Shown here piece after piece: positions 11,789 to 55,838 of a DNA stretch of 64,000 bases. The position numbers and the translations under genes were made by a program. The DNA comes from an uncultured Pseudokineococcus sp. (lineage in GTDB: Bacteria; Actinomycetota; Actinomycetes; Actinomycetales; Quadrisphaeraceae): the NCBI RefSeq assembly GCF_947495735.1, contig NZ_CANMAA010000016.1, positions 1-64,000 on the forward strand, written 5' to 3'. The notes under the pieces were generated by a model. It was not told the DNA's origin, ran no database searches, and saw only the letters and a list, made by a program, of their open reading frames with translations. The stretch's first letter is position 1, and the number at the start of each line of letters is the position of its first letter.

Positions 11789-11962
11789 ATGTCCGGAGTC
11801 GACAAGGCGAAGAACGTGGTGCAGCAGACGGTCGGCAAGGCCGAGGAGGCCGTCGGCGAGAAGACCGACGACGCCGAGCTCACCGGCCAGGGCCAGAAGG
11901 ACCAGTCGATGGGCGCCGCCCGTCAGCAGACGGAGAAGGCCAAGGACGCCACCGACCACTGA
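11789..11962 (+). CDS. CsbD family stress protein
   Basis: 57 residues, very hydrophilic, reading MSGVDKAKNVVQQTVGKAEE then TGQGQKDQSMGAARQQTEKA. This is the CsbD/YjbJ pattern (KxKxxxxQxxGKxxxxxGxxTxD...G). CsbD proteins are small, disordered or helical, and usually induced in general stress; their mechanism is unknown. The ATG follows AGGAGG four bases upstream, and a perfect 15-bp terminator follows, so the gene is a separate unit. Confidence 0.85.
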   Translation: MSGVDKAKNVVQQTVGKAEEAVGEKTDDAELTGQGQKDQSMGAARQQTEKAKDATDH

Positions 11963-43975: not shown

Positions 43976-45796
43976 TCAGAGCAGCGCGGTGAGCGCGGCC
44001 TCGCGGGCGGCGGCTGGGTCGGCAGCGGCGACGGCGGCCTCGGCCGCGGCGCGGCACTGCTCCGGCGTCGCGCTCGCCAGGCGCGCGCCCACGGCCGGGA
44101 GCGCGGCCGGCGCGGCGGACAGCGAGGTGACGCCGAGGCCCACGAGCACGCAGGCGAGGAGCGGGTCGGCCGCGGCCTCCCCGCAGACGCCGACGGGCTT
44201 GCCGGCGCGCCGGCCGGCCGCCGCCGTCATCGCCACGAGGGCGAGCACAGCCGGCTGCCACGGGTCGTTGAGGTCGGCGAGGTCGCCGGAGAGCCGGTCG
44301 GCCGCCATCGCGTACTGCGTGAGGTCGTTGGTGCCGATGGACAGGAAGTCCACGTGCGCCAGCACCCGGGCGGCCAGCAGCGCCACGGAGGGCACCTCGA
44401 CCATGACGCCGGGCACGAGGCCCCGGGCGCGCACCGCGACGCCGAAGTCGCGCGCCTCGGCCTCGGTGGCGACCATCGGCGCCATCACCTGCGGCCGCAG
44501 GCCGGTCTGCTCCGCCGCCAGGGCGACGGCGTCGAGCTGGCGCTCGAGCAGGCCCGGGTCGCGTCGCACCACGCGCAGGCCCCGGACGCCGAGGGCCGGG
44601 TTCTCCTCGTGCGCGGGGGTGGCGTAGGCGATCGGCTTGTCCGAGCCGGCGTCGAGGGTGCGCAGGACGACCTTGACGTCGGAGCCGTCCCCCGGGCCGC
44701 CGGCCGCGCGGGCGCGCTCGGCGAAGGGGCGCAGCACCTCGGCGTAGACGGCTGCCTGGGCCTCGACGTCGGGCTCGACGGTCGTGCCGAGGAAGCACAG
44801 CTCGGTGCGGAAGAGGCCCACGCCCGCGGCGGGCCCGCCGGCGGCGGCGCGGGCCGCCGGCCCGTCGGCCACGTTGGCGAGGACGGCGACGGGCGTGCCG
44901 TCGGCCAGGCGCCCGGGGCCGACCCAGGAGGCTGCGGCCGCGCGGTCCCCGCGGTCGCGGTGCACGCGCTGGGCGGCGCGCTCGAGGTCGGGCTCCCGCT
45001 CGACGGCGCCCGTGGTCCCGTCGACGAGGACGACCTCGCCGACGGCCAGGTCCTGCGCCCCGGCGGTCGCGACGACGCAGGGGATGCCTAGCTGGCGGGC
45101 GATGATCGCGGTGTGCCCGGTGGGGCCGCCGCCGCGGGTGACGAGCGCCAGCACCTGCGCCGGGTCCAGGCCTGCGGTGTCCGCCGGGGCGAGGTCCTCG
45201 GCGACGAGCACGCTGGGCTGCTCCGGGTTCGGGATGCCCGGCTCCTCCTGGCCGGTGAGCTCGGCGACGACGCGGTCGCGCACGTCGTGCAGGTCGGTGA
45301 CGCGGTCGGCCATCAGGCCGCCCATCGCCGCGAACATCCCCGCGAACTTCTCCGCGGCCCCCACGACGGCGACGTCGGCGGGCGCGCCGGCGCGCGTGCG
45401 CTTGCGCACCTCGCCCAGCAGGCCGCGGTCGGCGGCCAGCTGGGCCGTGGCGCGCAGGACCTCGGCGGCGTCGCCCTCGGCCGACCCCGCCCGGGCCGTC
45501 AGCCGCTCGGCGACGGCGGCCGCCGCCGCCCGGGCCCGCTCCAGCTCGGCGTCGCGGTCGTCCTCGGGCACCACGCCCGCGCCGCCGTCGGCGGGCACCG
45601 GGGGCAGCTGCGGTCGCGGCGCCGGCCGCACCACGGGGCCCACGGCGACGCCCGGCACGACGGGCGTGCCCCGCAGCGCCGCGGCCGGCGGCCGAGGGGC
45701 GGAGGCGGCGCCCAGCGGCTCGGCGCCCGTGGCGCGGCCGCCGGGTGAGCCGTGCCCCGCGGCGGAGCTGGCGGCGGAGGAGGTCGAGGAGGTCAT
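43976..45796 (-). CDS. ptsI: PTS enzyme I
   Basis: 606 residues, some 35 longer than usual because of a Ser/Ala/Gly-rich N-terminus. LRGTPVVPGVAVGPVVRP opens the conserved part. Active-site His228 is in GGGPTGHTAIIARQ, the PEP site includes GLFRTELCFL, GTNDLTQYAMAADR and the Cys loop GVCGEAAADP. It transfers phosphate from PEP to HPr. Divergent from fruR-fruK-fruA-ptsH, with a shared palindromic promoter element. No Shine-Dalgarno at the ATG; no other start lies before the conserved region. Confidence 0.95.
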   Translation of the reverse strand: MTSSTSSAASSAAGHGSPGGRATGAEPLGAASAPRPPAAALRGTPVVPGVAVGPVVRPAPRPQLPPVPADGGAGVVPEDDRDAELERARAAAAAVAERLTARAGSAEGDAAEVLRATAQLAADRGLLGEVRKRTRAGAPADVAVVGAAEKFAGMFAAMGGLMADRVTDLHDVRDRVVAELTGQEEPGIPNPEQPSVLVAEDLAPADTAGLDPAQVLALVTRGGGPTGHTAIIARQLGIPCVVATAGAQDLAVGEVVLVDGTTGAVEREPDLERAAQRVHRDRGDRAAAASWVGPGRLADGTPVAVLANVADGPAARAAAGGPAAGVGLFRTELCFLGTTVEPDVEAQAAVYAEVLRPFAERARAAGGPGDGSDVKVVLRTLDAGSDKPIAYATPAHEENPALGVRGLRVVRRDPGLLERQLDAVALAAEQTGLRPQVMAPMVATEAEARDFGVAVRARGLVPGVMVEVPSVALLAARVLAHVDFLSIGTNDLTQYAMAADRLSGDLADLNDPWQPAVLALVAMTAAAGRRAGKPVGVCGEAAADPLLACVLVGLGVTSLSAAPAALPAVGARLASATPEQCRAAAEAAVAAADPAAAREAALTALL

Positions 45797-46082: not shown

Positions 46083-46925
46083 GTGTACGCACCCGAGCGC
46101 CAGGCGGCCATCGCCGCACGCGTGGGCCGGCAGGCCCGGGTCTCGGTCAGCGACCTCGCGGCGGAGCACGCCGTCACGACCGAGACCGTCCGCCGGGACC
46201 TCGCCGTCCTCGAGCGCGCCGGCGCCCTGCGCCGCGTGCACGGCGGCGCCGTCTCCCCCGCCGCGCTCGCCGTGCCCGAGACCCGGGTGGAGGAGCGCGA
46301 CCGCATCGCCTCCGACGCCAAGGACCGCATCGCCGCCGCGGCCCTCGGGCAGCTGCCTCCGGGGACGACGAGCGTGGCCCTGGACGCCGGGAGCACCACC
46401 GGGCGCCTGGCCGGGCTGCTCGCGACGTCGCCGGCCGCCCTCGCGGAGGGGGCGGCGCTCGTCGTCGTCACCCATGCGGTGCACCTGGCGGCCCGCCTCG
46501 TGGGCGTGCCGGGCGTCGAGCTCCAGCTGGTCGGCGGGCGGGTCCGCCCCACGACCCAGGCCGCCGTCGGCGCGGAGGCCGTCCGCGCGCTGGACGACCT
46601 GCGCGTCGACGTCGCCGTCCTCGGCGCCAACGGCTTCTCCGCCGAGGCGGGCTTCACGACCCCCGACGCCGAGGAGGCCGCGGTGAAGCGCGCGCTCGTG
46701 CGCTCCGCGGGCCTCGTCGTCGTCGTCGCGGACGCCCGCAAGGCCGGCCGCCAGGACCTGCACCGCTTCGCCCGACTCGAGGAGGTCGACGTGCTCGTGA
46801 CCGACACGGCCCTGGACGGCCCCGCCGCTGGCGGCGCCCCCGTGGACGACGCACCCGGTGGCCCGGCGTCCACGGCCGAGCTCGAGGCCCTGCGGGCCGC
46901 CGGCGTCGACCTGGTGCTCGCGTGA
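46083..46925 (+). CDS. fruR: DeoR family regulator of fructose genes
   Basis: 280 residues from a GTG after GAGGGAG. DeoR helix-turn-helix: YAPERQAAIAARVGRQARVS, then EHAVTTETVRRDLAVLERAG and RRVHGGAV. Sugar-phosphate-sensing domain with ALDAGSTTGRLAGLLA and VLGANGFSAEAGFTT. It is translationally coupled to fruK (GTGA), so it is probably the fru repressor responding to fructose 1-phosphate. Family role known; target inferred from position. Confidence 0.9.
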   Translation: MYAPERQAAIAARVGRQARVSVSDLAAEHAVTTETVRRDLAVLERAGALRRVHGGAVSPAALAVPETRVEERDRIASDAKDRIAAAALGQLPPGTTSVALDAGSTTGRLAGLLATSPAALAEGAALVVVTHAVHLAARLVGVPGVELQLVGGRVRPTTQAAVGAEAVRALDDLRVDVAVLGANGFSAEAGFTTPDAEEAAVKRALVRSAGLVVVVADARKAGRQDLHRFARLEEVDVLVTDTALDGPAAGGAPVDDAPGGPASTAELEALRAAGVDLVLA

Positions 46926-47944
46926 GCGCCGCTGCGCCCGTGACCGGGGCCGGCACCGCGCCGGAGGTGGTCACGCTCACGGCCAACCCGAGCCTCGACC
47001 GCACGGTGGACCTCGCCGGGCCGCTGCGCCGCGGCGCCGTCCAGCGCGCCACCGCCTCGGTGGTCGAGCCCGGCGGCAAGGGCGTCAACGTGGCGCGCGT
47101 GCTCGCGGCGGCGGGGCGCGACGTCGTCGCCGTGCTGCCCGCCGACGCCGGCGACCCGCTGCTCGCCGCGCTCGCCGAGGCGGGGCTCGCGGCCCGGCCG
47201 ACGCCGGCCGGGGGGCCCGTGCGCACCAACACGGCGGTGACCGAGCCCGACGGCACGACGACGAAGGTCAACGAGGCCGGGCCGCTCCTGACCCCCGGCG
47301 GTCACGACGCCCTGCGCGGCGCCGTCCTCGACGCCGCGACGGGCGCGCGCTGGGCCGTGCTCTCCGGCTCGCTGCCCCCCGGGGCCCCCGCCTCTCTGTA
47401 CGCCGACCTCGTCGCGCCGCTGCGCGCGGCCGGGTGCGCCGTGGGCGTGGACACCTCCGGCGCGGCGCTCGCGGCGCTGCTCGGCCCGGACGCCGACCCG
47501 GCGGCGGCGCCCGACGTCGTCAAGCCCAACGGCGAGGAGCTCGGCGAGCTGACGGGGGAGGACGGCGACGCCCTCGAGGCCGACCCGGTGGCCGCCGCCC
47601 GCGCGGCCCGGTCGCTCGTCGAGCGCGGCGTCGGCGCGGTGCTCGTGACGCTCGGTGCGCGCGGCGCGGTGCTGGTGACGGCGCAGGGCGCCTGGAGCGC
47701 CCTGCCGCCGCCCGTCGTGCCGCGCAGCACCGTGGGCGCCGGGGACTCCGCGCTCGCCGGCTACGTCCTCGCGACCCTGCGCGGCGACGACGCCCCCGGC
47801 CGGCTCCGCGAGGCCGTCGCCCACGGCTCCGCGGCGGCGGCGCTGCCCGGCTCGGCGCTGCCCGGGCCCGACCAGGTGCGCCCCGACCTCGTCGAGATCA
47901 CTCCCCTGTCCCTCGACCCGGCGCCCGCGCCCCTCTCCTCCTGA
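46922..47944 (+). CDS. fruK: 1-phosphofructokinase
   Basis: 340 residues, PfkB family. TLTANPSLDRTVDLAG at the start, the sugar-binding VEPGGKGVNVARVLAAAGRD, and VVPRSTVGAGDSALAGYVLA near the C-terminus with catalytic Asp in GAGDS. It phosphorylates fructose 1-phosphate, the product of FruA, to fructose 1,6-bisphosphate using ATP. The GTG overlaps the fruR stop. fruA follows after about 70 bp. Confidence 0.93.
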   Translation: MSAAAPVTGAGTAPEVVTLTANPSLDRTVDLAGPLRRGAVQRATASVVEPGGKGVNVARVLAAAGRDVVAVLPADAGDPLLAALAEAGLAARPTPAGGPVRTNTAVTEPDGTTTKVNEAGPLLTPGGHDALRGAVLDAATGARWAVLSGSLPPGAPASLYADLVAPLRAAGCAVGVDTSGAALAALLGPDADPAAAPDVVKPNGEELGELTGEDGDALEADPVAAARAARSLVERGVGAVLVTLGARGAVLVTAQGAWSALPPPVVPRSTVGAGDSALAGYVLATLRGDDAPGRLREAVAHGSAAAALPGSALPGPDQVRPDLVEITPLSLDPAPAPLSS

Positions 47945-48012: not shown

Positions 48013-49956
48013 ATGAGCCACAGCACCGCACAGCCCGGCGCCGCGAGCGCGCCCGGGGGCGAGGACCTCCTCCTCCCGCGCCTCGTCGCGCTCGACGCCG
48101 ACCTCGGCGGCAGCAGCGAGGACGTCGTCCGCCGCCTGTCGGCGATGGTCTCCGAGGCCGGCCGCGCCGACGGCACCGACGGCCTCGCCAAGGCGGCCCT
48201 GGCCCGCGAGGCCAGCTCGCCCACCGGCCTGCCGAACGGCATCGCCATCCCGCACGCGCGGACCTCGCACGTCTCGCAGGCGTCGCTGGCCTTCGCGCGC
48301 CTGGCGCGGAAGGTCGACTTCGGCGCCCCCGACGGTCCCGCCGACCTCGTCTTCCTCATCGCCGCTCCCGAGGGCGCCGGCAGCGCGCACCTGAAGCTGC
48401 TGAGCAAGCTGGCCCGCGCGCTGGTGCGGCCCGCGTTCACCGCGTCGCTGCGCGAGGCCACCTCGGCCGACGAGGTCGTGCGCCTGGTCGAGGAGGTCAT
48501 CGCCCCGGCGCAGCCGAAGGCGCCCGCGGCGCCGGCGGCGGGCGCGCACGGCGCCACGGCTGCGGGCTCGGCGGCCCCGGCCGCCGCCTCCGGCGCCGTC
48601 GCGGCGGACGCCGCGGCGACGGTCGACCAGGAGAAGCCCGCCGCCACCGCGACCGGCGTGCGCCGGATCGTCGCCGTCACCGCCTGCCCCACGGGCATCG
48701 CGCACACCTACATGGCCGCCGACTCCCTCGTGGCCGCCGGCGAGCGCGCCGGCGTCGAGGTCGTCGTCGAGACCCAGGGCTCCTCCGGCTCGACGCCGCT
48801 GGCCCCCGAGGTCATCGCCGGCGCCAGCGCCGTGATCTTCGCGGTCGACGTGGGCGTCAAGGAGCGCGGCCGCTTCGCGGGCAAGCCGCTCGTGCAGTCC
48901 GGCGTCAAGCGCGCCATCAACGAGCCCGACGTCATGGTCGGCGAGGCGCTGCGCGCGGTCGACGACCCCTCCGCCCAGCGCGTGCCCGGCGACGGCGCGG
49001 GCGCGGGCGCCGCGGCCGGCGCGGGCAGCGGGGCCCGCCCCGGCTTCGGCAGCGAGCTGCGCCGCTGGCTGCTCACCGGCGTCAGCTACATGATCCCGTT
49101 CGTCGCGGCCGGCGGTCTGCTGCTGGCGCTGGGCTTCCTCTTCGGCGGGTACCAGATCGTGTCCGAGGCCCCGGGCGACCCGGACGGCACGGCGCTGAAC
49201 ACGCTGATCCTCGCGAACAGCTCGCTGACGGACCTCCCCGACGGCGGGCTGACGCAGTACATCGGCGCCGTGCTCTCGACCCTCGGCCAGCTGGCCTTCG
49301 GCCTGCTCGTGCCGGCGCTGGCCGGGTACATCGCCTACGCCATGGCCGACCGCCCCGGCATCGCGCCGGGCTTCGTCGCCGGCCTGGTGGCCGGCGCCAC
49401 GGGCGCCGGCTTCATCGGCGGCCTCGTCGGCGGCCTGCTCGCCGGCGCGGTGGCCCTCGCGATCAGCAAGATCCGGGTGCCCCAGTGGGGCCGCGGGCTG
49501 ATGCCGGTCGTGATCATCCCGCTGTTCGCGACGCTCATCACGGGCTTCCTGATGTTCGCGCTGCTGGCGCGCCCGCTGGCCGCGGTGACGACGGGCCTCG
49601 CCGACTTCCTCAACGGGCTCTCGGGCGGCTCCGCCGTCCTGCTCGGCGTCATCCTCGGCCTGATGATGGCCTTCGACATGGGCGGCCCGCTCAACAAGAC
49701 CGCCTACGCCTTCGCCGCCGCGGGCCTCGGGGCGGCGACCGCCACCGACACCGCGCCGCTGACGATCATGGCGGCCGTCATGGCCGCGGGCATGGTGCCG
49801 CCGCTGGCGCTCGCCCTGGCCACCGTGGTCCGCAAGAAGCTCTTCACGGAGCCGGAGCGGGAGAACGGCAAGGCGGCGTGGCTGCTCGGCTCGGCCTTCA
49901 TCACCGAGGGGGCCATCCCCTTCGCCGCGGCCGACCCGCTGCGCGTGATCCCCTAG
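48013..49956 (+). CDS. fruA: Fructose PTS EIIABC, truncated by amber stop
   Basis: As written, 647 residues. The EIIA domain has phospho-His81 in GIAIPHARTSH. After a Pro/Ala linker, EIIB has phospho-Cys225 in VTACPTGIAHTYMA. EIIC starts near residue 350 (WLLTGVSYMIPFVAAGGLLL) and runs to EGAIPFAAADPLRVIP. There a TAG at 49954-49956 stops it, although the same frame continues for 69 codons of clear EIIC sequence. The usual residue is Ser; TCG to TAG is a single change. Without the last two helices the transporter is probably inactive unless the stop is read through. fruR, fruK and ptsH around it look intact. Confidence 0.88.
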   Translation: MSHSTAQPGAASAPGGEDLLLPRLVALDADLGGSSEDVVRRLSAMVSEAGRADGTDGLAKAALAREASSPTGLPNGIAIPHARTSHVSQASLAFARLARKVDFGAPDGPADLVFLIAAPEGAGSAHLKLLSKLARALVRPAFTASLREATSADEVVRLVEEVIAPAQPKAPAAPAAGAHGATAAGSAAPAAASGAVAADAAATVDQEKPAATATGVRRIVAVTACPTGIAHTYMAADSLVAAGERAGVEVVVETQGSSGSTPLAPEVIAGASAVIFAVDVGVKERGRFAGKPLVQSGVKRAINEPDVMVGEALRAVDDPSAQRVPGDGAGAGAAAGAGSGARPGFGSELRRWLLTGVSYMIPFVAAGGLLLALGFLFGGYQIVSEAPGDPDGTALNTLILANSSLTDLPDGGLTQYIGAVLSTLGQLAFGLLVPALAGYIAYAMADRPGIAPGFVAGLVAGATGAGFIGGLVGGLLAGAVALAISKIRVPQWGRGLMPVVIIPLFATLITGFLMFALLARPLAAVTTGLADFLNGLSGGSAVLLGVILGLMMAFDMGGPLNKTAYAFAAAGLGAATATDTAPLTIMAAVMAAGMVPPLALALATVVRKKLFTEPERENGKAAWLLGSAFITEGAIPFAAADPLRVIP

Positions 49957-50166
49957 ATCATGCTCGGCTCGGCCACGACCGGGGCGATCGTCATGGCCAC
50001 GGGCGTGGAGCTGCGGGCCCCCCACGGCGGGATCTTCGTCTTCTTCGCCATCGACGGCGTCCTCGCGTTCGTCCTCGCGGTCCTCGCCGGCATGGTCGTC
50101 AGCGCCGTCGCCGTCATCGCCGCCAAGAGCCTCGGCCGCTCGAAGGCCGACCTCGCCGCCGCCTGA
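49957..50166 (+). pseudogene. fruA: Detached C-terminal part of fruA
   Basis: 69 in-frame codons after the amber stop, starting IMLGSATTGAIVMATGVELR and containing a membrane helix GIFVFFAIDGVLAFVLAVLA, ending KSLGRSKADLAAA. This is the normal end of fructose-type EIIC. An ATG at 49960 is in frame but no Shine-Dalgarno precedes it, so independent translation is unlikely. Confidence 0.8.
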
Positions 50167-50270: not shown

Positions 50271-50528
50271 GTGCCCAGCACCACCGTGACCGTCGGCTCC
50301 TCGGTCGGCCTGCACGCCCGTCCGGCCGCCGTCATCGCCGCCCGCGCCGCCGAGCTCGGCAGCGAGATCACGCTGTCCGTGCCGGACGAGGAGCCGGTGG
50401 ACGCCGGGTCCGCCCTCATGATCATGACGCTCGGCGCCGAGCGCGGCACCGAGGTGACCGTCGAGGGCGAGGACGAAGCCCACGTCGCCGAGATCGCCGC
50501 GCTGGTGGCCCAGGACCTCGACGCCTGA
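50271..50528 (+). CDS. ptsH: HPr phosphocarrier
   Basis: 85 residues from a GTG behind GAAGGAGGG. Phosphorylated His15 sits in VGLHARPAAVIAARA. The regulatory-Ser region reads VDAGSALMIMTLG, so Ser is present there. HPr receives phosphate from EI and passes it to the EIIA domain of FruA. It is the last gene of the fru operon, ended by a 15-bp hairpin. Confidence 0.95.
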   Translation: MPSTTVTVGSSVGLHARPAAVIAARAAELGSEITLSVPDEEPVDAGSALMIMTLGAERGTEVTVEGEDEAHVAEIAALVAQDLDA

Positions 50529-50558
50529 CCCACCGCACCCGCGCACCGCGCAGCACGT

Positions 50559-50592
50559 GGACGGCCCCCGCCCGAGAGGGCGGGGGCCGTCC
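50559..50592 (+). terminator. fru operon terminator
   Basis: Perfect 15-bp stem (50559-50573 with 50578-50592) and GAGA loop, 31 bp after ptsH. Confidence 0.85.
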
Positions 50593-50635
50593 GTCGAGCG
50601 AGCCGTCCGTCGAGCAGGGCGCCGTCCCGGTGATC

Positions 50636-50651
50636 TGTGACGGACGTCACG
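50636..50651. promoter_or_regulatory. Crp/GlxR-like palindrome
   Basis: TGTGACGGACGTCACG fits TGTGA-n6-TCAC(A), the Crp/GlxR consensus, with one edge mismatch. It is in the gap between ptsH and bioY, upstream of a TAGACA -10-like box at 50685. No adjacent gene starts here in the forward direction. Confidence 0.45.
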
Positions 50652-50696
50652 GTCCGGGGGCTTCTCGCCGCGCGCGGCGGCGGGTAGACAGGTGGC

Positions 50697-50799
50697 CGTC
50701 CGGTCCGCCTCGCCGACGGCGTCGAGCGCGGACCGGTGCGACGACCTCAGCTGCTCGCGACGACGACGGCCCCCGCCCATCGGGCGGGGGCCGTCGTCG
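50697..50799 (+). ncRNA. Candidate small RNA
   Basis: A TAGACA box (50685-50690) below the Crp-like site would start a transcript near 50697, which would reach the perfect terminator hairpin at 50761-50799. No convincing protein fits, as the GTG frame at 50692 runs on without a family match. There is no clear -35. This is inference only. Confidence 0.25.
50761..50799. terminator. bioY terminator (bidirectional)
   Basis: Perfect 18-bp stem (50761-50778 with 50782-50799) and 3-nt loop, 15 bp past the bioY stop. Its lower stem repeats the core of the ptsH terminator (GGCCCCCGCCC). Confidence 0.85.
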
Positions 50800-50814
50800 T
50801 GCGTCGGAGCGGGG

Positions 50815-51411
50815 TCAGCCCCGGCGTCCGACCCGGCGCCACACGGCCGGCACCAGGGCCGCGGCGACCGCGGCCTTGACGACGCCGCCGAGGAGGAACG
50901 GGAAGAAGCCCGCCGCCAGCGCCGCCGAGGCGCTCAGGCCGGCGGTCACGGCCAGCCACGGGACGCCGACGGCGAAGACGACGAGCTGGCCGGCGACGAA
51001 CAGCGGCAGCGCGCGCAGGAACCGGCGGTCGGCGCCGTGGCGGGCGGCCAGACCCATGAGGTAGGCGGCCGGCACGAACCCGAGGACGTAGCCGCCCGTC
51101 GCCCCGACGACGGCCTCGTAGCCGCCGCTCGCCTCGGAGTAGAAGGGCAGGCCGACCAGCGCCGCGAGGATGTAGAACCCCATGACGGAGACGGCGCGCA
51201 CCGGCCCGAGCGCCGAGGCCACCAGCACGAGGCCGAGGGTCTGGCCGGTGATGGGCACCGGGGACCCGGGCACGGGCACCGACACCTGCGCCATCAGCGC
51301 CATGCCGAGGACGCCCCCGGCGACGAGCGCGACGTCGCGGGTGCGACTGCCCGGCAGCAGGTCGGCGAGGACGAGCCCGGCGCGGGGTGCGGGGAGGGCG
51401 GCGGAGGACAC
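50815..51411 (-). CDS. bioY: Biotin transporter BioY
   Basis: 198 residues from a GTG behind CAGGAG. Six hydrophobic segments with the BioY pattern: VPVPGSPVPITGQTLGLVL, GLPFYSEASGGYEAVVGATG and GYVLGFVPAAYLMG. It is the substrate-binding (S) component of an ECF-type vitamin importer and takes up biotin. Its partners bioM and bioN are not adjacent, so it must act alone or with a shared module. Confidence 0.9.
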   Translation of the reverse strand: MSSAALPAPRAGLVLADLLPGSRTRDVALVAGGVLGMALMAQVSVPVPGSPVPITGQTLGLVLVASALGPVRAVSVMGFYILAALVGLPFYSEASGGYEAVVGATGGYVLGFVPAAYLMGLAARHGADRRFLRALPLFVAGQLVVFAVGVPWLAVTAGLSASAALAAGFFPFLLGGVVKAAVAAALVPAVWRRVGRRG

Positions 51412-51650
51412 GGGCGGCTCCTGCGGGAGGCCGGCTCGCTCGGCCGGCGGGGGACGGGTCGCCGCCGATCCTGGCAGAGGCGCCGGCGGCGGCTCTCCGT
51501 CGCGGCCCGGTGCGGTCGTCCGGGCTCGCCGCTTCGTCGTCGCGACGACGGCGTCCGGCCCGGCTGCTGCGGGCGCGACGCCGTCACGTCGCCCGGCCGT
51601 CACCCGGACGGCACCCGCGCGCGGGGAGGGGCGCACGTAGTGTCACGGGC

Positions 51651-52472
51651 ATGCGCTGGCTCGTGGCTCTCGACGTGGACGGCACGCTCATCGACCACGA
51701 CGAGGTCATGTCACCCGTCGTCCGCGAGGCCGTGCGCGACGTCGTCGCCGCCGGCCACCACGTGGTCGTGGCCACCGGTCGCTCCCTCGACAGCGCCTAC
51801 CCGGTGCTCGGGTGGCTCGGCCTGGCCCCCTCGGAGGACGCGGACGCCAAGCCCTACGTCTCCCCGATGGTCTGCAGCAACGGCGCCGTGACGGTGCAGG
51901 TCGACCCCGCGCTGCCGGACGGCCACCAGGTCAGCGACGTCGTGACGTTCGACCCCGCCCCGGTGCTGCGGCTGCTCGTGCAGGACCTGCCGACCGCGGC
52001 GTTCGCCGTCGAGGACGTCGGCGTCGGCTTCAAGGTCGCGGGGAAGTTCCCGGAGGACGAGCTGACCGGCCGGATCACGCACGTCGCCTTCGACGAGCTG
52101 CTCGCGGGGCCCGCCAGCCGCGTCGTCGTCCGCAGCCCCGAGCACACGCCGCAGGACTTCCTCGAGATCACCTCCCGGCTCGGGATGAAGGGCGTCAACT
52201 ACTCGGTGGGCTGGACGGCCTGGCTCGACCTGGCGCCCGAGGGGGTCAGCAAGGCCAGCGCCCTCGAGGTCGTGCGCCAGCGCCTGGGCGTGGACCCGGC
52301 GCGCACCCTCGCCATGGGCGACGGGCGCAACGACCTCGAGATGCTCCGCTGGGCCGCCCGCGGGGTGGCCATGGGCCAGGCGCCGGCCGAGGTGCGCGAG
52401 GCCGCCGACGAGGTCACCGGCACGGTGCTCGACGACGGCGCCGCCGCGGTGCTCGCGACGCTGCCGCGCTGA
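51651..52472 (+). CDS. Cof-type HAD phosphatase
   Basis: 273 residues. HAD motif I ALDVDGTLIDHD (nucleophile Asp), motif II in VVATGRSLDSA, motif III Lys in GVSKASALEV and motif IV MGDGRNDLEMLRWA. The large C2B cap makes it a Cof/YbiV-like sugar- or nucleotide-phosphate phosphatase. Substrate unknown. The ATG follows TAGTGT by 7 nt without Shine-Dalgarno, so the mRNA is likely leaderless. A perfect palindromic terminator follows 45 bp later. Confidence 0.9.
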   Translation: MRWLVALDVDGTLIDHDEVMSPVVREAVRDVVAAGHHVVVATGRSLDSAYPVLGWLGLAPSEDADAKPYVSPMVCSNGAVTVQVDPALPDGHQVSDVVTFDPAPVLRLLVQDLPTAAFAVEDVGVGFKVAGKFPEDELTGRITHVAFDELLAGPASRVVVRSPEHTPQDFLEITSRLGMKGVNYSVGWTAWLDLAPEGVSKASALEVVRQRLGVDPARTLAMGDGRNDLEMLRWAARGVAMGQAPAEVREAADEVTGTVLDDGAAAVLATLPR

Positions 52473-52613: not shown

Positions 52614-55600
52614 GTGACGGTCGGCGAGGTGCTCGGGGCAACGGTGCGCCGCGCCGATCACCCCCCGGTGAGCAGCTCCTCGTCTCCCTCGGTCCCCGGG
52701 CGCCCGGGAGCCGCAGCCCTCCCGCCCCGCGCAGCCGGCGCCGCCGTGCGCCCCCTCGTCGCCGCGGCCTTCGTCGCGGTGCTCACGGCCCTCGGGGCGC
52801 TCGTGCCCGCCGTGCTCGGGGGCGGGTCGGCGCTGACCGCCGCCGACGCCCCCGTCTCGCTCGGGCGGACCGAGCCGGTGCTGCGCCCGATCCTCGACCA
52901 GTTCCCCCCGGCGGTGCCCACGGGGCTGACCGTCACCGCCCTCGAGGGCTCCCTCGCCGTCCGGTGGAATGCGGTGGGCGACAACGACCTCAAGGACTAC
53001 CGCGTCTACCGCGACGGGACGCTCGTCGCGACGGTGCTGAAGGGCACGACCACCACCACCCTCACCGGGCTCGTCAACGACCAGACCTACTCGATCACCG
53101 TCAGCGCGCGGGACACCGTCGACAACGAGTCGCGGCAGTCGGCGGCGGTCCTGGGCACCCCGCGCGACATGACGCCGCCGCCGGTCCCCACCGGGCTCGT
53201 GGCGGTGCCCGGCGACGCCACGGCGGCGCTGTCGTGGCACGCCGCCTCGGACACCGACCGCACGGCCGTGCGCGTGCTGCGCGACGGCGCCCAGGTGACG
53301 TCGCTGCCGGCCGCCACGACGAGCTGGACGGACACCGGGCTCGTCAACGACCGCACGTACTCCTACGCGCTGGTCGCCGTCGACGCCCGCGGCAACCCCT
53401 CGCAAGCCTCCTCCCCGCCGGTGACGGCGACGCCGACCGACCTCACGGCTCCGGCCGTGCCCACCGGTCTGCGGGCCGTCGCGGGCGACGCGAGCGCGGC
53501 CCTCACCTGGGACCCGGGCGTCGACCCCGACCTCGCGAGCGTCCGCGTGCTGCAGGACGGCGCGGTGGTCGCCGAGCTGCCCGCCGGGACGACGTCGTGG
53601 ACCGCCACCGGCCTGGTGATCGGGCGCCCCTACGGCTTCTCGCTCGTCGCGGTCGACGGCCACGGCAACGTCTCCGCCGCCTCCTCGCCGCCGGTCGAGG
53701 TGGTGCCGGTCGACCTCACCGCTCCCAGCACCCCGACGGGGCTGGTCGCCGTCCCGGGCAACCGCTCCGCCGTCCTGTCCTGGGACCCCGTCGCCGCTGA
53801 CGACCTGGCGGCCTACGAGCTCCTGGACGCGAGCGGCGCGGTCGTCGCGCGCGTCGCCGCCCCGGCGACCTCGGTCCAGCTGACCGGTCTGGCAAGGGAC
53901 CACCAGGAGGCCTACCGCGTCGTCGCGGTGGACCTCGCGGGCAACCGGTCGGCGCCCAGCGCGCCCGTCGTCGTCTCGCTGAGGGACCGCACGCCGCCCG
54001 CTCCCGTCTCGGGCACCGCCGTGGCGGAGCTCGACCGGGCGCTGCGCGTCACCTGGTCGCCGGGCGCGGACCTGGACATCGCGGTCTACCGGGTCCTGCT
54101 CGAGGGGGTCGTCGTGGGCCAGGTGGCGGTGGGCGCTCCGCCGGAGCTGCTGCTGGAGGGGCTCCAGGGGGGCCGCTCGCACCAGGTCGTCGTCCTCGCC
54201 GTCGACGCCGCCGGCAACGTCTCGGCGGGGCACGCGCCGGTGCTCGCCGTCCCCCTCGACCTCCTGCCCGCCGCGCCGACCGGGGTGAGCGCCGTCCCGG
54301 GCGTCGGCAGCGCCGAGGTGTCCTGGGCGGACGCGGCCGAGGACGACGTCGTGGAGCACCACGTCCTCGTCGACGGCGTCGTCGCCGCGGTCGTGCCCCG
54401 GGGCAGCACCTCCGTCGTGCTCGAGGGCCTGGCCCCCGGCGTCGAGGTGGTGGTCGTGGTCGTCGCCGTGGACGCCGGGGGCGGTCTCTCCGCGGTCAGC
54501 GCCGCCGTCCGCGTCGTCCCGCTCCTCCCGCTGCCGCTCTTCCCGCCGTTCGCGCCGCTCGTGCCCCCGGTCGAGGGCTCGGGCACGGCCACCGGCGCGG
54601 GCCTGGCGGCGACGCGCGACGGCCGGTGGGTCGTCGTGAGCACCGCCGCCCGCCTCGAGGACTCGGACACCAACAGCGCCCCGGAGCTGCACCTGGTCGA
54701 CCGGGTCGCGGGCACCAGCCGCCGGGTCGCCCCGCTGCCCGCGGGCTGGCGCTCGACGTCGACCGACAGCACCAACGCCAGCGCCGTCGCCCTCAGCGAG
54801 GACGGGCGCTACCTGGCCCTGTCGACGACGGCGCGGCTGGTGCCGGCCGACACGAACAGCCTGCTCGACGTCTACCGCCTCGACCTGACCACGGGGGAGG
54901 CGGCGCTGGTGAGCGTCCCCGCCTCCGGGGCCGTGTCCGCGAGCACCGCCGGGGCGGTGCTCCCGACCGGCGCCTCCGTCTCCGCCCGCAGCCCCGGCCT
55001 CGCGACGACCGCCGACGGCGGGACCGTCTTCTTCCTGTCCGCCCGCGCCGACCTCGTCCCGGGGGACCGCAACGGCGTCGCCGACGTCTTCGCCAAGGAC
55101 CTCGTCACCGGGGCGGTGCGGCGCGTCTCGACGTCGTCCACGGGCGGGGAGACGTCGCTGCGGGCCACCGGGCCCGCGCTCGAGGCGACCCCGGACGGGC
55201 GGTACGCCGTCTTCCCCGCCCAGGCCTCGGGCCGCCCGGTCGTCCTCGTGCGCAAGGACCTGCTCACGGGCGCGCTCGTCGTCGCCTCGACGATGCCGGG
55301 GACCGGCTCGACGCCGGTGGAGGTGGGCGTCTTCCGCGACACCGGAGACGTCGCGGTGAGCGACGACGGCCGCTACGTCGCCTTCAGCAGCGCCGCCAAG
55401 CCGTCCGCGCCGAGCACCTCCTGGTCCACCGGTCTCGCCTACCGCAAGGACCTGGTGACGGGGGACCTCGAGCCCCTCGGCACGGGGCAGACGGCCGCGT
55501 GGGAGCACCAGCTCGGGCTCGACGCGACGGGGCGCTACGGCTTCGTGGCGACGGCCGCGCCGCTGCTGGCCCACGACGACAACCGGCGCACCGACCACTA

Positions 55601-55838
55601 CCGGCGCGACCTGGGCACCGGGGCCCTGGACCTCGTCACCGCGCGGGCGGACGGGTCGGTCGCGCCGTCAGCGCCGGGCTCGATCACCCCGGCCGAGTAC
55701 GGGCGCGTCCTCGTGCTCGACGCCGACCGCGTGCTCGTCGGCACCGTCCTGCCCCTCGTGGACGGCGACGCCAACTCCGCGCTCGACGTCTACGGCCGCG
55801 ACCTCGCCCGCGGTCAGGCGGGGTCCGTCCTCCCCTGA
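52614..55838 (+). CDS. Secreted fibronectin III/beta-propeller protein
   Basis: 1074 residues. A hydrophobic export segment lies at about 46-70 (VRPLVAAAFVAVLTALGALV). Six fibronectin type III units follow, each opening with PxxPTGL-like edges (PPAVPTGLTVTA, VPTGLVAVPG, AVPTGLRAVAG, TPTGLVAVPG, then APVSGTAV and AAPTGVSAVPG). From about residue 655 a TolB/WD40-like propeller carries repeated SEDGRYLAL, TADGGTVFF, TPDGRYAVF and SDDGRYVAF blades. No enzyme motif or cell-wall anchor is seen. GTG 52614 is used; later GTGs are possible. Likely a cell-surface or secreted binding protein. Confidence 0.8.
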   Translation: MTVGEVLGATVRRADHPPVSSSSSPSVPGRPGAAALPPRAAGAAVRPLVAAAFVAVLTALGALVPAVLGGGSALTAADAPVSLGRTEPVLRPILDQFPPAVPTGLTVTALEGSLAVRWNAVGDNDLKDYRVYRDGTLVATVLKGTTTTTLTGLVNDQTYSITVSARDTVDNESRQSAAVLGTPRDMTPPPVPTGLVAVPGDATAALSWHAASDTDRTAVRVLRDGAQVTSLPAATTSWTDTGLVNDRTYSYALVAVDARGNPSQASSPPVTATPTDLTAPAVPTGLRAVAGDASAALTWDPGVDPDLASVRVLQDGAVVAELPAGTTSWTATGLVIGRPYGFSLVAVDGHGNVSAASSPPVEVVPVDLTAPSTPTGLVAVPGNRSAVLSWDPVAADDLAAYELLDASGAVVARVAAPATSVQLTGLARDHQEAYRVVAVDLAGNRSAPSAPVVVSLRDRTPPAPVSGTAVAELDRALRVTWSPGADLDIAVYRVLLEGVVVGQVAVGAPPELLLEGLQGGRSHQVVVLAVDAAGNVSAGHAPVLAVPLDLLPAAPTGVSAVPGVGSAEVSWADAAEDDVVEHHVLVDGVVAAVVPRGSTSVVLEGLAPGVEVVVVVVAVDAGGGLSAVSAAVRVVPLLPLPLFPPFAPLVPPVEGSGTATGAGLAATRDGRWVVVSTAARLEDSDTNSAPELHLVDRVAGTSRRVAPLPAGWRSTSTDSTNASAVALSEDGRYLALSTTARLVPADTNSLLDVYRLDLTTGEAALVSVPASGAVSASTAGAVLPTGASVSARSPGLATTADGGTVFFLSARADLVPGDRNGVADVFAKDLVTGAVRRVSTSSTGGETSLRATGPALEATPDGRYAVFPAQASGRPVVLVRKDLLTGALVVASTMPGTGSTPVEVGVFRDTGDVAVSDDGRYVAFSSAAKPSAPSTSWSTGLAYRKDLVTGDLEPLGTGQTAAWEHQLGLDATGRYGFVATAAPLLAHDDNRRTDHYRRDLGTGALDLVTARADGSVAPSAPGSITPAEYGRVLVLDADRVLVGTVLPLVDGDANSALDVYGRDLARGQAGSVLP

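Follow-up and report, generated by a model that had tools for sequence, protein, structure and literature searches.

An in-frame TAG codon interrupts the fructose permease gene fruA of an uncultured Pseudokineococcus: probably a recent nonsense mutation

FruA is a fructose-type PTS protein which combines EIIA, EIIB and EIIC in one chain (EIIABC), its EIIC part belonging to the TIGR01427 subfamily. Two further kinds of described systems are relevant when a stop codon is encountered inside such a gene. Pseudogenes with a single nonsense codon are a known kind in bacterial genomes, and in stop-codon reassignment or suppression TAG is read as an amino acid. In the window analyzed here, i.e., the whole stretch of 64,000 nucleotides, a gene of the FruA type is interrupted by one in-frame TAG. 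This gene shares with described FruA proteins the domain order EIIA-EIIB-EIIC, the neighbors fruR, fruK and ptsH, and a fold relation to PTS EIIC structures or models. It differs from them by the TAG at codon 648, whereas the copies of the three congeners are intact (one of them starts within EIIC at a contig edge). The host genome is a draft assembly of 59 contigs with 4,205,862 bases and a completeness of 96.71%, and the window is located in contig C16.

The reading frame of fruA (48013..50166, plus strand) extends from the ATG at 48013 to the TGA at 50164-50166 and comprises 717 residues if the internal stop is counted as one. All three Pfam domains, namely PTS_EIIA_2 (residues 33-161), PTS_IIB (220-305) and PTS_EIIC (356-642), score over their cut-offs, as do TIGR01427 and TIGR00829, with TIGR00848 (IIA) slightly under its own (100.5 vs. 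103.5). An uninterrupted EIIC, as characteristic of FruA, is not present, since the TAG at 49954..49956 (plus strand), a sense codon in every relative read, lies in the frame opened by the ATG at 48013 and splits the gene, as the initial annotation had reported. The same annotation had described the 69 codons past the TAG as EIIC sequence in an unchanged frame, and this description holds as well. 69 sense codons stay open between the TAG and the TGA, and the fructose EIIC profile TIGR01427, which matches at positions 15-285 with 288.9 bits up to the TAG, matches at positions 15-343 of 346 with 344.7 bits when the TAG is read through, a gain of 56 bits. This longer match indicates that the severed part (49957..50166, plus strand; 69 sense codons plus TGA) represents the true end of EIIC rather than a frame that is open by chance. 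Judged by the general Pfam model PTS_EIIC alone the loss would appear small, since position 310 of 319 is already reached upstream of the TAG; it is visible in TIGR01427, in the fold model described below and in the conserved tail.

The window contains a fructose operon with ptsI on the minus strand and fruR, fruK, fruA and ptsH on the plus strand. In agreement with the initial annotation, the four genes accompanying fruA were found to be intact. Pfam matches near full length were obtained for fruR (46083..46925, DeoR-type regulator; PF00455 and PF08220), fruK (46922..47944, 1-phosphofructokinase type of the PfkB family; PF00294, with TIGR03168 over and TIGR03828 under the respective cut-off) and ptsH (50271..50528, HPr; PF00381 at residues 3-80). 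The gene ptsI (43976..45796, minus strand; enzyme I, 606 aa) is an open frame with three enzyme I domains over cut-off (PF05524, PF00391 and PF02896), its TIGR01417 score of 302.9 lying below the model cut-off of 341.7. Two alike G+C-rich inverted repeats were noticed by eye 3′ of ptsH (50560-50591 and 50760-50800, about 200 nt apart); no T run follows either of them, and a terminator scan of 50400-50900 yielded none. The operon is followed by a BioY-family gene (50815-51636, minus strand; PF02632), a gene for a haloacid-dehalogenase-type hydrolase (51651-52472, plus strand; PF08282) and a long ORF (52614-55838, plus strand; 1074 aa) with matches to fibronectin type III domains (PF00041).

For the EIIC part with the TAG read through, an AlphaFold2 model was generated from 34 sequences (mean pLDDT 86.3, pTM 0.73). 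In this model the TAG corresponds to residue 300 and falls inside a predicted helix (294-315), which is followed by three further helices (325-331, 335-358 and 363-368). Foldseek returned PTS EIIC structures or models in all of the top five positions, with TM-scores by query length of 0.45-0.61 and an E-value below 0.001 for the first alone; a sequence search of solved structures retrieved no PTS protein (best E 0.87). A product ending at the TAG would retain EIIA, EIIB and 299 of the 369 modeled EIIC residues, while most of one helix and everything beyond it would be gone. Loss of this part would be expected to destroy the permease. Across the whole genome, PTS_EIIC and EIIA_2 have one match each, both in fruA, and neither EIIC-GAT nor a second FruA match was detected. 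A second PTS permease able to replace fruA was thus not found in this search, which was directed at PTS_EIIC, EIIA_2, EIIC-GAT and FruA itself.

The site was compared with its counterparts in other genomes. In all three genomes of the same genus, whose EIIC is 92-96% identical to that of the window over the 299 residues before the TAG, the equivalent of codon 648 encodes Ser. Among all 29 relatives read, these three congeners included, Ala occurs 16 times, Ser 12 times and Pro once. A second genome scan, of whose 572 confirmed candidates 80 loci were read, gave Ser at 76 and Ala at 4 of these loci (TCG in 69), and none of the 80 contains a stop between the start of the match and the end of EIIC. 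The statement of the initial annotation that this position is typically Ser is therefore valid for the congeners and the 80 loci, but not for the 29 relatives, in which Ala is more frequent. Outside the host genome, neither the 29 relatives nor the 80 further loci have a stop at this site. An order-wide search yielded a match in 168 of 396 genomes, and among the matches listed only those of the host and of one other genome, G038, contain an internal stop. The fruA-type gene of G038 (locus L027, minus strand) carries a single TAA after GGSVA in EIIC, at a position occupied by a sense codon in 12 compared genomes of its genus; it is independent of the TAG in the window and located at another place in EIIC. 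A plasmid search matched 202 records, with a best identity of 64% among the five matches listed. The picture at the TAG site, with the stop in one genome, close relatives intact and further lesions absent, is the one expected of a recent nonsense allele.

All in all, we consider it probable that the fruA TAG is a real and recent nonsense mutation, private to the host genome as far as seen. A single-base substitution would then have cut FruA after 647 residues in the recent past, as release factor 1 (RF1) is expected to end translation there. Since the helix and the later part of EIIC would be lost, fructose uptake by the PTS would most likely be abolished, leaving fruK, ptsH and ptsI without their evident use. 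The remaining operon genes provide an indication of the age of such an event. Silent and amino-acid changes in the host lineage, given as raw counts against two congeners, amount to 87/50 for ptsI, 45/15 for fruR, 58/26 for fruK, 40/23 for EIIAB and 11/4 for ptsH. These numbers suggest that the operon was under selection during most of the history of the host lineage, which implies that the TAG would be either recent or not real. Within EIIC, host-only changes were called against three congeners with the TAG itself left aside. The 299 codons before the TAG contain 5 amino-acid and 21 silent changes, the part past it 4 of each. An established null would show more amino-acid change past the TAG; the excess found (4/8 vs. 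5/26) is a trend that does not reach significance (Fisher p = 0.16), and relaxed selection was not accepted on this basis. The lack of further decay pointed out in the initial annotation applies to second stops and frame changes, of which there are none, yet less clearly to the amino-acid changes downstream.

Both a mutation and a one-base consensus error in the draft assembly, with an intact fruA in the organism itself, are consistent with the sequence, the genome collection used for comparison having one genome per species. Of the alternatives, this error is the one that has to be taken most seriously, even though we regard it as unlikely. It would account for a difference of one base, private to the host, in a gene that is conserved apart from it, and for the intact state of the other operon genes, in which silent changes outnumber amino-acid changes, since an error would leave the same pattern. 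Relative to the congeners, the coding strand moreover shows a difference of the C-to-A type, the complement of G-to-T, a change which one publication is reported to link with oxidative damage, including damage ex vivo (PMC12390751); a real mutation, however, yields the same class of change.

An argument against the error comes from a scan for other in-frame stops, a rough screen and not a census, which covered the window, the rest of its contig and 20 stretches of 20 kb (474,756 bases). Its stricter setting, with 40 codons and a margin of 0.25, gave three matches, namely the fruA TAG, which was also the one match in the window alone, and the loci L161 and L178. The latter two were rejected as split genes because Pfam shows them to be borders of complete neighboring genes (one between a permease and the ABC ATPase after it, the other between two aldo/keto reductases), so that of the three matches only the fruA TAG breaks up one gene. 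With the looser setting of 30 codons and a margin of 0.2, the fruA TAG was not flagged, and the five matches obtained were all TGA: L161, L178, L176, L180 and position 11960 of the window, the open frames downstream of the last three comprising 40, 33 and 97 codons, respectively. The candidate TGA at 11960 (plus strand) is preceded by an open frame of 700 codons. A host genome full of broken genes is not what this sample portrays, given that at the stricter setting only the fruA TAG was confirmed. The absence of any other gene-splitting stop confirmed in the sample at that setting thus does not point to a high rate of substitution errors, and it is for this reason that a mutation is favored over an error.

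Much less credible than either is a naturally split transporter, to which we assign a very low probability. Here, ribosomes terminating at the TAG would start anew at an ATG located 3 nt further on (TAG-ATC-ATG), and the resulting fragments of 647 and 68 aa would assemble in the membrane and jointly still transport fructose; owing to the internal Met codon two codons on, the nonsense mutation would then be nearly neutral. The ATG opens a frame of 68 aa (49960..50166, plus strand), taken from the ORF list, and as a start codon close to the stop it makes reinitiation mechanically possible. For three gene pairs of E. coli, a gap of +2 nt is stated to reduce reinitiation by only 5, 20, and 70% (PMC10666635). 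Nevertheless, the site is devoid of a Shine-Dalgarno sequence above background: the predicted anti-SD duplex at the ATG has -2.4 kcal/mol, compared to a middle value of -2.2 for 32 in-frame internal ATG/GTG codons of fruA, 16 of which are as strong or stronger, and to -9.1, -5.8 and -12.7 at the starts of fruR, fruA and ptsH, respectively. The three congeners also encode Met at the position of this ATG, so that its spacing from the TAG is a coincidence of the stop position. In addition, the break lies within a predicted helix and not in a loop, so that assembly of the two fragments would have to accommodate it, and no relative read has a stop at this site.

Equally improbable is that near-cognate tRNAs read through the TAG often enough to supply a useful amount of full-length FruA. 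Some read-through at TAG is seen in E. coli reporters, where it is reported to decrease from TGA over TAG to TAA and lead to insertion of Tyr, Gln or Lys at TAG (PMC11126739). These residues may not fit at a site at which the relatives read have Ser, Ala and once Pro. The same study reports that no read-through was detected for native genes of E. coli that end in TAG, a result ascribed by the authors to the rarity of these genes (PMC11126739). In the host, decoding of TAG is ordinary. RF1 is present, over cut-off and uninterrupted, and ARAGORN, run on the 45 matches of a tRNA search with their flanks (some neighbors being counted twice), found at these loci of the 96.7% complete genome no anticodon CTA, TTA or TCA, the readers of TAG, TAA and TGA. 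Among 270 scored terminators in the 474,756-base sample, TGA accounts for 256, TAG for 13 and TAA for 1; as TAG ends 13 of these genes, it is an ordinary, rare stop in the host. Recoding of TAG or its dedicated suppression is rejected on the grounds of the tRNAs, RF1, the usage of TAG and its missing conservation, a TAG being found at the site in 0 of 29 relatives and 0 of 80 further loci where recoding would need it. Of the three options put forward in the initial annotation, an error and a recent null thus both stay in consideration, whereas a dedicated read-through codon is disfavored by these same observations.

If the nonsense mutation is real, the permease has been lost from the only PTS found in the host with the four queries named above, while enzyme I, HPr, kinase and regulator are kept, and the host would represent a snapshot of pathway loss at its first step. 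If the TAG is an error, the case illustrates that one base of a draft can make a conserved transporter look like a pseudogene. Neither would surprise a specialist. Literature searches on fruA nonsense mutations, Streptomyces read-through, pseudogene read-through, split permeases and Quadrisphaera gave no publication that treats such a case, as judged by titles and abstract openings. With stop-codon reassignment, the locus has in common an in-frame TAG within a conserved gene; the host differs from such systems in that no tRNA for TAG was found, RF1 is kept, and only one such site, which is not conserved, was confirmed in the sample. The likeness to the single-nonsense pseudogenes of bacterial genomes is closer and consists in one stop, a gene that is otherwise intact, and an occurrence in one genome only. 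Compared with these pseudogenes there is nothing distinctive about the fruA case, the biology of which is ordinary.
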